A stretch of DNA of 64,000 nt from Bdellovibrionales bacterium (GTDB lineage: Bacteria; Bdellovibrionota; UBA1018): assembly GCA_016786465.1 (NCBI GenBank), contig JAEUWC010000024.1, positions 62,001 to 126,000 of the forward strand. Direction: 5' to 3'. Shown here piece after piece: positions 21,963 through 25,845 of this stretch. Within the stretch, counting starts at the first letter, position 1; every line of letters begins with the position of its first letter. The translations under genes and the position numbers were made by a program. The notes beneath the pieces were generated by a model, which was not told where the DNA came from, did no database searches, and saw nothing but the letters and a program-made list of their open reading frames with translations.

Positions 21963-22307
21963 ATGAATGGATTCATGATGAATCCAATCTTGTTTCAGAT
22001 TTGCGCAATTTCGATGATTTTTCTAAGTGAAGTCGCTAGCGCCGACTATGCCACTAGCACATACGGCACGGCTCGGGGAGACCGGCAGTCAGTCTGCACG
22101 TGGGCCAAAAACCTTGCCCTTCAAGACGCTATGGCAATCTGTGCTCGGTCTCAGGAAAACATCGCCGCCTGGATTCCGTTGGTATCCAACCATGCGTGTT
22201 CGACAGGGCCTGCGGGTTCAGCTACGAACTGCAGTTGCACCGTGGAAGTGCGATTCAACTGTGAAAACATCGTGCCCCCAGATTTGGACGGCACGTTTCA
22301 CGATTGA
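21963..22307 (+). CDS. Small exported cysteine-containing protein, unknown
   Basis: A 114-residue protein with AAGGA 5 bases before the ATG and a signal peptide (hydrophobic residues 8-20, cleavage probably after SADA or SEVASA near residue 27). The mature part is about 87 residues with six cysteines (CTWAK, AICAR, HACST, NCSCTV, FNCEN), probably disulphide-bonded in the periplasm or outside. The stop overlaps the 3' end of the convergent nucleotidyltransferase-like gene by 10 bases. I do not recognise a family. Confidence 0.75.
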   Translation: MNGFMMNPILFQICAISMIFLSEVASADYATSTYGTARGDRQSVCTWAKNLALQDAMAICARSQENIAAWIPLVSNHACSTGPAGSATNCSCTVEVRFNCENIVPPDLDGTFHD

Positions 22308-22849
22308 ACTGAAGACTTCCGGCAGCGCACAATCGTTGTGTCTGAAAACCCGGGGCTAGGCGATTTAAAGACTAGGCCTTCGACTTCGTCGGACGGATCA
22401 GCCAAAACTTCTAAGCACTTTTCCGCAGTCCCGATCAGCGGCAATGTTTGAAAATGCGGCGAAAGGTACGCGCGTGGTAAATTCTTGTAACGATCCAGAA
22501 AATTCAGGCGTTCCAAGCTTCGATCGTCCTTTTTTAAGAAGTCAAAAAGATAAATCCGGTCCTTGGGTTTGATCCATTCGCCTTCGACAACGTTCCAACC
22601 TACAGTCGGCGACAAAAGGCGGCGGGCTTCCGCTTCCATCGCAGGCGGCAATATCTTTTGATGAAGCTGTCCCTGACGATTATAGGCTAAAATCGCTTCG
22701 TCCGCGTCGGCAGGGATGTGAAGCTGCACGCGATGGCCGTGGATCTTGGTTTGTCCCGTCCATCCTTTTGCCAAAACCTTCGCAACCGATTCAGCCGTCG
22801 GTGCGATTTCAGTCTTTGGATGTGGCGCGCGAATAAAACGTGATGGCAT
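22298..22849 (-). CDS. Stand-alone DNA/RNA-ligase-like nucleotidyltransferase
   Basis: From the ATG at 22849 (GAGG 5 bases upstream) this is 183 residues; an upstream start at 22915 lacks a ribosome site. The order of motifs is that of the covalent nucleotidyltransferase fold. Motif I is K35-I-H-G with R40, a His replacing the usual Asp of KxDG. Then come YNRQG (Ia-like), VVEGEW (III), IYLFDFL (IIIa), E157-G-L-V-F-K162 (IV) and VRCRK (V-like). No OB-fold domain follows. It is third in the LigD operon, and its core residues are better kept than in LigD's own ligase domain, so it may supply adenylation or ligation in trans. Activity is inferred, not shown. Confidence 0.65.
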   Translation of the reverse strand: MPSRFIRAPHPKTEIAPTAESVAKVLAKGWTGQTKIHGHRVQLHIPADADEAILAYNRQGQLHQKILPPAMEAEARRLLSPTVGWNVVEGEWIKPKDRIYLFDFLKKDDRSLERLNFLDRYKNLPRAYLSPHFQTLPLIGTAEKCLEVLADPSDEVEGLVFKSPSPGFSDTTIVRCRKSSVQS

Positions 22850-22966
22850 GAGCCTCACTGCTCTTGAAAAAATGACGGGCTCGAAAATCGAGCGTCCCCC
22901 GACCGCCGTTTGCATATGCGAAAGGGTTAGAAAAGATGCCCCTTCCTGGCAAGCGCGAAAACCGCG

Positions 22967-23578: not shown

Positions 23579-25845
23579 GGTCCTGATTTTTCGTCGGATT
23601 CGGCTAAAAACTTTATGATTTTATCGGGATGCGCGGGTTTCAAAAGCGGTGCCCAAAGATCCCCCTGTTTTTCAATGCGACGCAGTAAATTCATCATATG
23701 AAAGCCTGAAGGATCAAGACCACGGCCCATTTCAGACCATTTTAGGGGAGTAGAAACGGGCGCGCCGGGGCGAGGGCGAACCGAATAAACCGATGCTAAA
23801 GTTTGGCCCGTTCGGTTTTGCATGAAGTCAAGATACAGACGCCCGCCTCGCTTGGCGGGGTTTCTTTCAAGTGTTGTGGACTTGGGGTGCAGCAATTGTA
23901 CCTGTGCACAAATCCTTTCGCTGAAGATCCGCGCTTGATCGTAAGTCAGCTTTGCGCCCAAGGGCACGCAGATATGAAGACCCGTGGCACCGGAAGTTTT
24001 GACCCAACATTCGATGTCCAATTTTTCCAAAACCTTTCGCACCGTCTTCGCGATTTCGATCACTTCTTCAAAACTTTGGCGATCCGGATCCAGATCGATC
24101 ACCAAGTGATCCGGGTTTTCAATCGTCGACACGCGCGAAAGCCAGGGATTCATTTCGATGCAACCTAGATTTGCCAGGTAAAGAAGCGACGATTCGTTAT
24201 TGCAAATCACATAGTCGACGGACTTTTTTGCTGATTCAGAATAGATCCGTGTGGTTTCCAAAAACTTGGGTTTATAGCCTGTGAAATCCTTTTGATAAAA
24301 ACCGCCTTGATCGATTCCGCCCGGGAACCGATGCAACGACATCGGTCGGTCGCGAAGATGGGGTAGGATCACGTCCGCAACCGAACGATAGTATTCAATC
24401 AGGTCACCTTTGGTATACCCGTCGTCCTTCCAATAAACTTTGGTCAGGTGGGTTAAGGCGGGACCGCGTTCGCCCGAATCTTTTTTCCCTTCGACAGCTC
24501 GATCTTCGCCCGCTTCCAGTTCGAATTCATGCCAGTCGCGTGAAACACCGCCCTGATAGGTCGAATCGCGGTGGCGCGCTAAAAAAGTACCGCCCGTTTT
24601 CGCAGCTTCTTCGTGGGTGAACGTTTTTGAAAGCCTGATCCCGTCATTCCGAAAAATCGAAAGCTTCGAAAGTTTTTCCAAGCGTTCTGAAAGGGCCAGA
24701 CCTCGGTAATCCATCCCATCGAAAAAGATCAGATCCAAGACCTGAAACGATTTTCCGTCGGGCGAAATTTCTCCGTCCAAAACCATCGGCGTTCGGATTT
24801 TTGAAAGCGCATCAATCAGGTGGGGGAATTTGGGCTTGAAGCTTAAGAATCGTTTTGAATAAAGCGCGACTCGTGACCCATCGATTTCGGCCACCGCGCG
24901 GTGTCCTCCTGATAGCTTTGTGATCTGCCAGGTCTTTTCGTCCCATTCTTTTTTTGTGCGTTCCAAAAGCGGAAGTTCAAGGGCGACGCGTCTTGGGATG
25001 GGTGAAGCTTTGGGTTTTGGATCGGCTTTTTTGGTGGCCAATACCGCTTTTGGCTTTTCGTTTCTAGGCGGTTTGCGGTCGGCAGATGATTCTGTTTTTG
25101 ATTTCTTTCCGGCTTCTGATTTAGCTACCATATCCAGCCGGGGTGCGACCGTCGTTTTCTTGGGAATCCAGACCTGTCCCTTTTTCTGCGCTTCAGCGGC
25201 AATTTCAGCCATCGTGCGACCCGTGGCTGCGGAAACATCGCCGGGCCATCCCGGTTCTTGACCGCGTTTGATTTTGTAAGTGGAATGCTCATCGCGCTTT
25301 TTGACCAGGATCCAAGTCTTGTTGCTGGCGTCCTTTTCGCCGGGATTTAGGCGAATCAAGGCGAACTCTCCGCGAAGTTTTTGTCCTTCCAGAATAAAAG
25401 TCATGTGGCCTTCGGCTAGGCCTTCCAACATCGCTTTTTCACCCAGGCCTGGATCGCTGTTTCCGCGTTCTTCGTAAGTTCCGTAGTCCCAGATCATGAC
25501 GGTGCCAGCGCCATAATTTCCTTTGGGGATGATGCCTTCGAATGAACCATAAGCGATCGGGTGATCTTCGACAAAAACGGCAAGGCGCTGATCGGCCGGA
25601 TTCAACGATGGGCCACGGGGAACGGCCCAGCTTTTAAACGACCCGCCCATTTCCAGGCGCACGTCAAAGTGAAGGCGCGTGGCGCGATGAAGCTGGATGA
25701 CAAACCGAAGCTTCCCGCTTCGATCCGCTAGTTTCCCTTGGGGTTCCGGTGTCTGATCAAACTTCCGTTTGCGGTTGTATTCGCTCAGAGTGCTCTGAGC
25801 ACCTTTTGATGCTTGGCGCGTCATATTCGTCCGGAATCCGTTCAT
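23539..25845 (-). CDS. ligD: LigD-type NHEJ protein: phosphoesterase, degenerate ligase, polymerase
   Basis: A 768-residue protein in the order PE - Lig - Pol. The 3'-phosphoesterase domain (about 20-195) keeps HRATRLHFDVRLE and EDHPIAYGSFEG. A basic low-complexity linker spans about 240-285. The ligase-like region (290-445) is eroded: motif I reads K310-L-S-G instead of KxDG, motif IV lacks its EG and has Arg for Lys (FLAR), and motif V reads WHEFE instead of WLKVK. No OB-fold follows. The primase-polymerase domain (about 460-735) is intact, with the metal-binding D584-L-D586, VKTSGATGLHICVPL and QTLASVYSVRPRPGAPVSTPL. It therefore looks able to process and fill ends but not ligate. The start could be the ATG at 25845 or at 25824. 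Confidence 0.9.
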   Translation of the reverse strand: MNGFRTNMTRQASKGAQSTLSEYNRKRKFDQTPEPQGKLADRSGKLRFVIQLHRATRLHFDVRLEMGGSFKSWAVPRGPSLNPADQRLAVFVEDHPIAYGSFEGIIPKGNYGAGTVMIWDYGTYEERGNSDPGLGEKAMLEGLAEGHMTFILEGQKLRGEFALIRLNPGEKDASNKTWILVKKRDEHSTYKIKRGQEPGWPGDVSAATGRTMAEIAAEAQKKGQVWIPKKTTVAPRLDMVAKSEAGKKSKTESSADRKPPRNEKPKAVLATKKADPKPKASPIPRRVALELPLLERTKKEWDEKTWQITKLSGGHRAVAEIDGSRVALYSKRFLSFKPKFPHLIDALSKIRTPMVLDGEISPDGKSFQVLDLIFFDGMDYRGLALSERLEKLSKLSIFRNDGIRLSKTFTHEEAAKTGGTFLARHRDSTYQGGVSRDWHEFELEAGEDRAVEGKKDSGERGPALTHLTKVYWKDDGYTKGDLIEYYRSVADVILPHLRDRPMSLHRFPGGIDQGGFYQKDFTGYKPKFLETTRIYSESAKKSVDYVICNNESSLLYLANLGCIEMNPWLSRVSTIENPDHLVIDLDPDRQSFEEVIEIAKTVRKVLEKLDIECWVKTSGATGLHICVPLGAKLTYDQARIFSERICAQVQLLHPKSTTLERNPAKRGGRLYLDFMQNRTGQTLASVYSVRPRPGAPVSTPLKWSEMGRGLDPSGFHMMNLLRRIEKQGDLWAPLLKPAHPDKIIKFLAESDEKSGPWEKQVPRKARKK

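Follow-up and report, generated by a model that had tools for sequence, protein, structure and literature searches.

A LigD operon with a degenerate ligase domain, an RNA-ligase-like nucleotidyltransferase and a conserved orphan protein: a candidate variant of prokaryotic NHEJ

Bacterial NHEJ is usually described as a two-component machine of Ku and LigD, as in M. tuberculosis, P. aeruginosa and B. subtilis. LigD without Ku has nevertheless been counted in 619 organisms, 10.3% of the bacteria surveyed (PMC7719229), and the passage that gives this count says nothing on how such bacteria work. In Methanocella paludicola, the phosphoesterase (PE), polymerase (Pol) and ligase activities reside on separate operon-encoded proteins, with Ku and the DNA ligase in complex (PMC4797286). 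LigD PE and Pol leave a single 3' ribonucleotide, which known LigD ligase domains prefer at nicks (PMC8656161). Among RNA ligases, TbREL1 has no OB fold and is completed in trans by KREPA2 (PMC4366279), while DpRNL is a 203-aa RNA ligase 2 with a short C-terminal region, which was only modelled in that study (PMC4599027).

The window analyzed here, a stretch of 64,000 nucleotides, carries three genes that run in one direction in the order LigD, MID (a conserved orphan) and NT (a stand-alone minimal nucleotidyltransferase, or NTase), which we refer to as the module. With Ku+LigD NHEJ it shares the PE and Pol catalytic motifs and the end-processing steps expected from them. It differs in that the LigD ligase domain is dead or deleted and a separate minimal ligase-like protein is present, in that eight of the nine genomes carrying the module lack Ku, and in the orphan MID within the operon. 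Because Ku and an active LigD ligase are both missing, we do not class it as Ku+LigD NHEJ. As in M. paludicola, activities are spread over separate operon-encoded proteins, whereas here there is no Ku, and an OB-less RNA-ligase-like NTase is found instead of a DNA ligase. With T4 Rnl2 and the kinetoplastid editing ligases (TbREL1 with KREPA2, and DpRNL), NT shares a KxHG motif I, motifs III, IIIa and IV and a catalytic domain without an OB fold, and a partner in trans, as for TbREL1, is also possible for NT.

A literature search, in which subscription journals were thinly covered, returned no paper linking LigD to an RNA ligase, no dead-ligase LigD that occurs together with an orphan and an RNA-ligase-like enzyme, and no named module of this kind. 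We file the module as a new variant of prokaryotic NHEJ; separate NHEJ genes in an operon and Ku-less LigD were already known. With a ligase-like enzyme of its own and, in Ku's place, a conserved partner, the module is a defined candidate for Ku-less NHEJ that is open to testing.

Gene order and the degenerate ligase domain of LigD

The three genes form an operon-like unit, since they are co-directional, with an overlap of 40 bp between LigD and MID and a gap of 51 bp between MID and NT, the last gene (Table 1). A promoter and terminator scan of the locus added nothing to this picture.

Table 1. Positions of the module genes, their domains and motifs in the window, and of the parallel loci in other genomes.
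Feature	Position	Strand	Remark
LigD: PE, dead ligase domain, Pol; 768 aa	23539..25845	(-)	
LigD 3'-phosphoesterase (PE) domain	25288..25788	(-)	H/H/D/R and EDHP..YG motifs present
LigD degenerate ligase NTase domain	24466..25092	(-)	without motif I Lys, motif IV/V and OB
LigD dead motif I, KLSGGHR	24898..24918	(-)	L-S-G-G aligned to KxDG
LigD primase-polymerase (Pol) domain	23653..24414	(-)	DxD (VIDLDPD) present
MID (MID-A), conserved orphan; 203 aa	22967..23578	(-)	occurs in exactly the nine NT genomes
NT, stand-alone minimal nucleotidyltransferase, RNA-ligase-like; 205 aa	22298..22915	(-)	start set by upstream conservation
NT motif I, KIHGHR	22730..22747	(-)	K57 predicted AMP-accepting lysine; K57, H59, G60, R62 invariant
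NT motif III, VVEGEW (E113)	22574..22591	(-)	E113 invariant
NT motif IIIa, IYLFDF (F124, D125)	22538..22555	(-)	
NT motif IV, EGLVFK (E179, K184; residues 179-184)	22364..22381	(-)	E, G, K invariant where reached
NT motif V, IVRCRK (residues 195-200)	22316..22333	(-)	R-x-R instead of K-x-K; R-C-R where reached
KYDD/Pol/MID-B loci	L030:4230-6859, L032:4444-7798, L077:5875-8379, L078:4556-7003, L083:7157-9130		

The Pol and PE domains of the window LigD were recognized with high significance (PF21686, E 1.7e-88; PF13298, E 1.8e-39), and the match of LigD to a DRT model of PADLOC was only weak (E 0.014). The first-pass annotation had described a degenerate LigD two genes upstream of NT. This description holds, with L-S-G-G in place of KxDG and with motifs IV and V and the OB fold gone. 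Across the module, the motif I lysine, motifs IV and V and the OB fold have been lost from eight of the nine LigDs, and the whole domain from the ninth (G333); at the KxDG position we read L-S-G-G, LTDG, DRQG, APNG, DQGG, FGSG, -SNG and FWRG. By comparison, KxDGxR was kept in all 22 LigDs checked outside the module. For these controls, 30 Pol loci were examined, 25 of them from module-free genomes; the frame reaches motif I in 21 of the 25, the remaining four being cut short or stand-alone Pols, and the 22nd control is the second LigD of G304 (L084).

Measured as identity to the window among the module genomes, conservation within the operon is lowest in the dead domain (31-43%), against 62-81% for PE, 65-76% for MID, 51-67% for Pol and 52-65% for NT; MID is thus better conserved than either NT or Pol. 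The DGE of motif III and the core of the dead domain are still present in eight of the nine LigDs (the window, L004, L006, L026-L029 and L085). Having been retained rather than deleted, the domain may play a structural role. An intact ATP-dependent DNA ligase (PF01068 above cut-off, besides the LigD remnant) was found in none of the window genome (G000), G001, G012 and G333. NAD-dependent LigA is present in eight of the nine module genomes and could seal nicks there.

The nucleotidyltransferase NT and the orphan MID

The first-pass annotation starts NT at 22849, but this ATG is internal. Because homologues conserve residues upstream of it (IF.ETIFS), we moved the start to the ATG at 22915, where the frame begins. 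The residues listed in the same annotation, namely the motif I lysine, EGLVFK as motif IV and a basic motif V, with no OB fold, were all found as described. The histidine it had taken as a departure from KxDG is not damage; it gives the KxHG form of motif I, which is typical of Rnl2-type RNA ligases. All homologues have K-[IV]-H-G at this position. K57, H59, G60, R62, E113, F124 and D125 are invariant in eight of eight aligned homologues, as are EG...K of motif IV and R-x-R of motif V in every homologue reaching them (NT is cut off at a contig end in G305 and interrupted by a run of N in G369). This invariance spans four families despite an overall identity of about 50%, orthologues in distant genomes being 49-68% identical. 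With motifs I, III, IIIa, IV and V all present in this order, NT has the motif set of the covalent nucleotidyltransferase (ligase/capping) superfamily. The chain stops within about 10 residues of motif V, and because the protein ends directly after this motif, we conclude that it has no OB fold.

In profile searches, NT matched the Pfam family RNA_ligase (PF09414) at 31 bits against a 27-bit cut-off (E 3.5e-7; 30.5 bits for the full-length protein) and scored 21.8 bits against PF01068 (DNA_ligase_A_M), below the cut-off of 26.2 bits. Both families were matched at E<=1 by all eight NT members scanned, and TIGR02779 gave no match with NT. The better matches of a PDB profile search were weak and almost all ligases, the best being 3qwu, annotated as a DNA ligase (E 0.0027). 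The AlphaFold model of NT, built on an alignment of three rows, is poor (pLDDT 44), so its top Foldseek match, T4 Rnl2 at E 0.075, is a hint only; the Pnkp/Rnl/Hen1 complex was also among the weak matches of this model. Sequence profiles and the weak fold match thus agree with the nucleotidyltransferase fold proposed in the first-pass annotation, of the ligase/RNA-ligase kind.

The C-terminal domain of T4 Rnl2 comprises residues 244-329 (PMC4599027). We looked for such a domain after motif V of NT and found none, and the K-x-K of Rnl2 motif V is R-C-R in all NT members that reach it. Nor is there an OB-fold domain with motif VI, as in the ATP-dependent DNA ligases LigD Lig, LigC and LigB, the NT sequence ending after motif V. 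NT differs from the Rnl2 family in these two respects, the missing C-terminal domain and the R-x-R of motif V, as well as in its LigD setting, and no sequence match to Rnl2 itself was detected beyond the Pfam family and the weak fold match. Judged by its sequence, NT is therefore not classed as an Rnl2 member, since the C-terminal domain and K-x-K are both missing. For an enzyme with R-x-R in motif V and neither motif VI with an OB fold nor the Rnl2 C-terminal domain, activity could also be weak or different.

MID, which the first-pass annotation does not mention, belongs to no family in Pfam, NCBIfam, PHROG, PADLOC or PDB. Its matches to Phage_TAC_15 (E 0.04-0.15) fall under the cut-off and were taken as chance. 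Profile comparison of MID with Ku found no similarity, and the structure model of MID (pLDDT 40, alignment of three rows) is unusable for a comparison with the Ku fold.

Occurrence of the module, of Ku and of a parallel gene set

A profile search of 369 genomes of the phylum gave clear NT homologues in nine, which span four families and form a small sample from one phylum, mostly of draft assemblies. MID, searched independently, occurs in precisely these nine genomes. LigD is present in all nine. The first-pass annotation had named homologues lying only away from LigD as evidence against its proposal, and we found no clear NT homologue in such a place. LigD, MID and NT are adjacent in eight of the nine; in G335, LigD ends one contig and MID and NT open another. 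Four weaker profile matches comprise three NTases with a KYDD motif I and one ordinary-looking stand-alone ligase. Other phyla were searched with a single NT sequence, which detects close relatives only. The first-pass proposal that NT replaces the dead LigD domain gains from this distribution, as all nine LigDs are without the lysine or the entire domain, and replacement of LigD ligase activity by NT is a good reading of these sequences. Its further suggestion, a splitting-off of this activity from LigD, is one of several possible origins, on which two trees disagree (see below).

We also considered other settings for these genes. Phage records and viral contigs contained neither NT nor MID, PADLOC had no match for either as a defence system, and plasmids contained no MID and only weak matches to NT (26-29% identity). 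One such match lies on the Rhodanobacter thiooxydans plasmid NZ_CP088924.1 (13731-14165; 28.6% identity, E 0.4, possibly chance), under a gene annotated as a WGR domain protein. In G001, NT is followed in the same direction by a gene (L004:6550-7368) whose product presumably resembles DUF72/YecE-type proteins.

Eight of the nine module genomes, including that of the window, lack Ku (PF02735), which could have been missed in some of them, most being drafts. The ninth, G304, has Ku beside a second, intact LigD. Within the genus of G304, G305 carries the module only, while G306 and G307 carry Ku and LigD. Across the phylum, we counted 81 genomes with LigD Pol and 61 with Ku. Both are present in 59; the two other genomes with Ku, G072 and G117, gave no LigD Pol at the chosen threshold. 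MID or a second orphan, MID-B, is present in 15 of 22 Ku-less genomes with LigD Pol and in one of 59 Ku-bearing ones (Fisher p 3e-10, a value that ignores shared ancestry). The first-pass annotation had not noted this near-exclusion.

MID-B, an orphan of 260-280 aa, is part of a gene set parallel to the module. Five Ku-less genomes of the window's family encode a stand-alone NTase with a KYDD motif I, a stand-alone Pol and MID-B. The orphan lies between Pol and the KYDD NTase in four of the five, while in G020 about 15 kb of the same contig separate the NTase from Pol and MID-B. MID-B occurs in seven genomes in all, each of which has Pol and lacks Ku; in the other two carriers, G030 and G021, we found no KYDD NTase. 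Like the module, this set combines a minimal NTase and an orphan with a LigD Pol in Ku-less genomes, and its NTase forms one clade with NT (support 100/100). It differs in the KYDD motif I, in a motif III with DGG where ligases have DGE, in its stand-alone Pol and in a longer orphan doubtfully related to MID. In hhalign comparisons, MID-A and MID-B reached E 0.007-0.013 (z 3.2), and one of 300 shuffles scored as well, so that by sequence the two are at most distantly alike. MID-B, too, shows no resemblance to Ku in sequence comparison.

Proposed mechanism, alternatives and origin of NT

We consider it probable, though by no means assured, that the operon encodes a variant prokaryotic end-joining machine which in most hosts does without Ku. 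In this scheme, PE and Pol would heal DNA ends, NT would seal them, and MID would hold the ends or complete the ligase. PE would clean 3' ends and trim ribonucleotides, and Pol would align the ends and add ribonucleotides, LigD thus contributing its end-processing halves only and its own ligase domain being a dead remnant. NT would take AMP from ATP onto K57 and seal the remaining nick, whose 3' end would typically be a ribonucleotide. An Rnl2-like NT would be a natural substitute sealer here, because the 3'-ribonucleotide ends left by LigD PE and Pol are a substrate suiting Rnl2-type ligases. With no substrate-binding C-terminal or OB domain of its own, NT probably acts in a complex. MID is its likely partner, and may bind and hold DNA ends as Ku does, complete the ligase in trans as KREPA2 does, or both. 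If this is true, the ligase module of NHEJ would be replaceable by an RNA-ligase-type enzyme suited to LigD's ribonucleotide-ended intermediates.

Some of the same features could also fit a role in RNA repair, in which the substrates of PE, Pol and NT would be broken RNA or RNA/DNA hybrids rather than chromosomal breaks, with 3' ends healed by PE and NT serving as a true RNA ligase. RNA_ligase is the best family of NT, its motif I is KxHG, T4 Rnl2 and the Pnkp/Rnl/Hen1 complex are among its weak fold matches, and LigD PE and Pol handle ribonucleotides (PMC8656161). However, LigD Pol is an end-joining polymerase where studied, neither a 5' kinase or phosphatase nor a Hen1-like gene was seen in the operon, and the module's near-exclusion with Ku points to DNA end-joining, which makes RNA repair an unlikely role. 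We regard as quite unlikely a scheme that leaves nick closure to LigA and has NT form or remove an adenylate on a protein or on DNA ends, in end protection or AMP transfer. The presence of LigA would allow this, as would an NT with an altered motif V and neither an OB nor a C-terminal domain to hold a nick, but in every module genome the LigD of the module has completely lost its ligase, and motifs III, IIIa and IV of NT are of the ligase type. Its small size alone is no bar to sealing, given the 203 aa of DpRNL (itself modelled only; PMC4599027).

That the operon is simply decaying, with NT a functionless remnant, would suit the decayed ligase domain of LigD and the patchy distribution of the module. 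This seems very improbable for a protein whose motif residues are invariant at about 50% identity across four families, next to a MID that is 65-76% identical and in a gene order kept in all nine genomes.

Where NT came from is a separate matter; it may have arisen by fission, by duplication or by recruitment from outside. One route, compatible with the end-joining mechanism we favor, is that NT is LigD's own ligase domain, which would have diverged after duplication or fission, with decay of the copy in LigD. NT and the dead domain share one operon, and a tree without the KYDD family places NT beside the dead domains (support 81/77, unstarred). With the KYDD family included, however, NT and KYDD form their clade without joining the dead domains, and hhalign ranks KYDD (E 3e-13) as nearer to NT than the ligase domains of LigD, whether live (1e-8) or dead (4e-5). 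Both trees are unsafe because of long branches, and we consider descent from LigD doubtful.

MID-A and MID-B constitute two orphan families of candidate DNA-end-binding or ligase-completing proteins. We tentatively entertain, as a possibility short of an even chance, that both are replacements of Ku, that is, unrelated or very distantly related end-holders in a Ku-independent bacterial NHEJ that would use LigD Pol/PE and minimal RNA-ligase-like NTases, would have arisen at the loss of the LigD ligase and would join through ribonucleotide ends. G304 offers a natural chance to compare both systems within one cell, its module (L026) and its conventional Ku+LigD operon (L084) lying about 575 kb apart.
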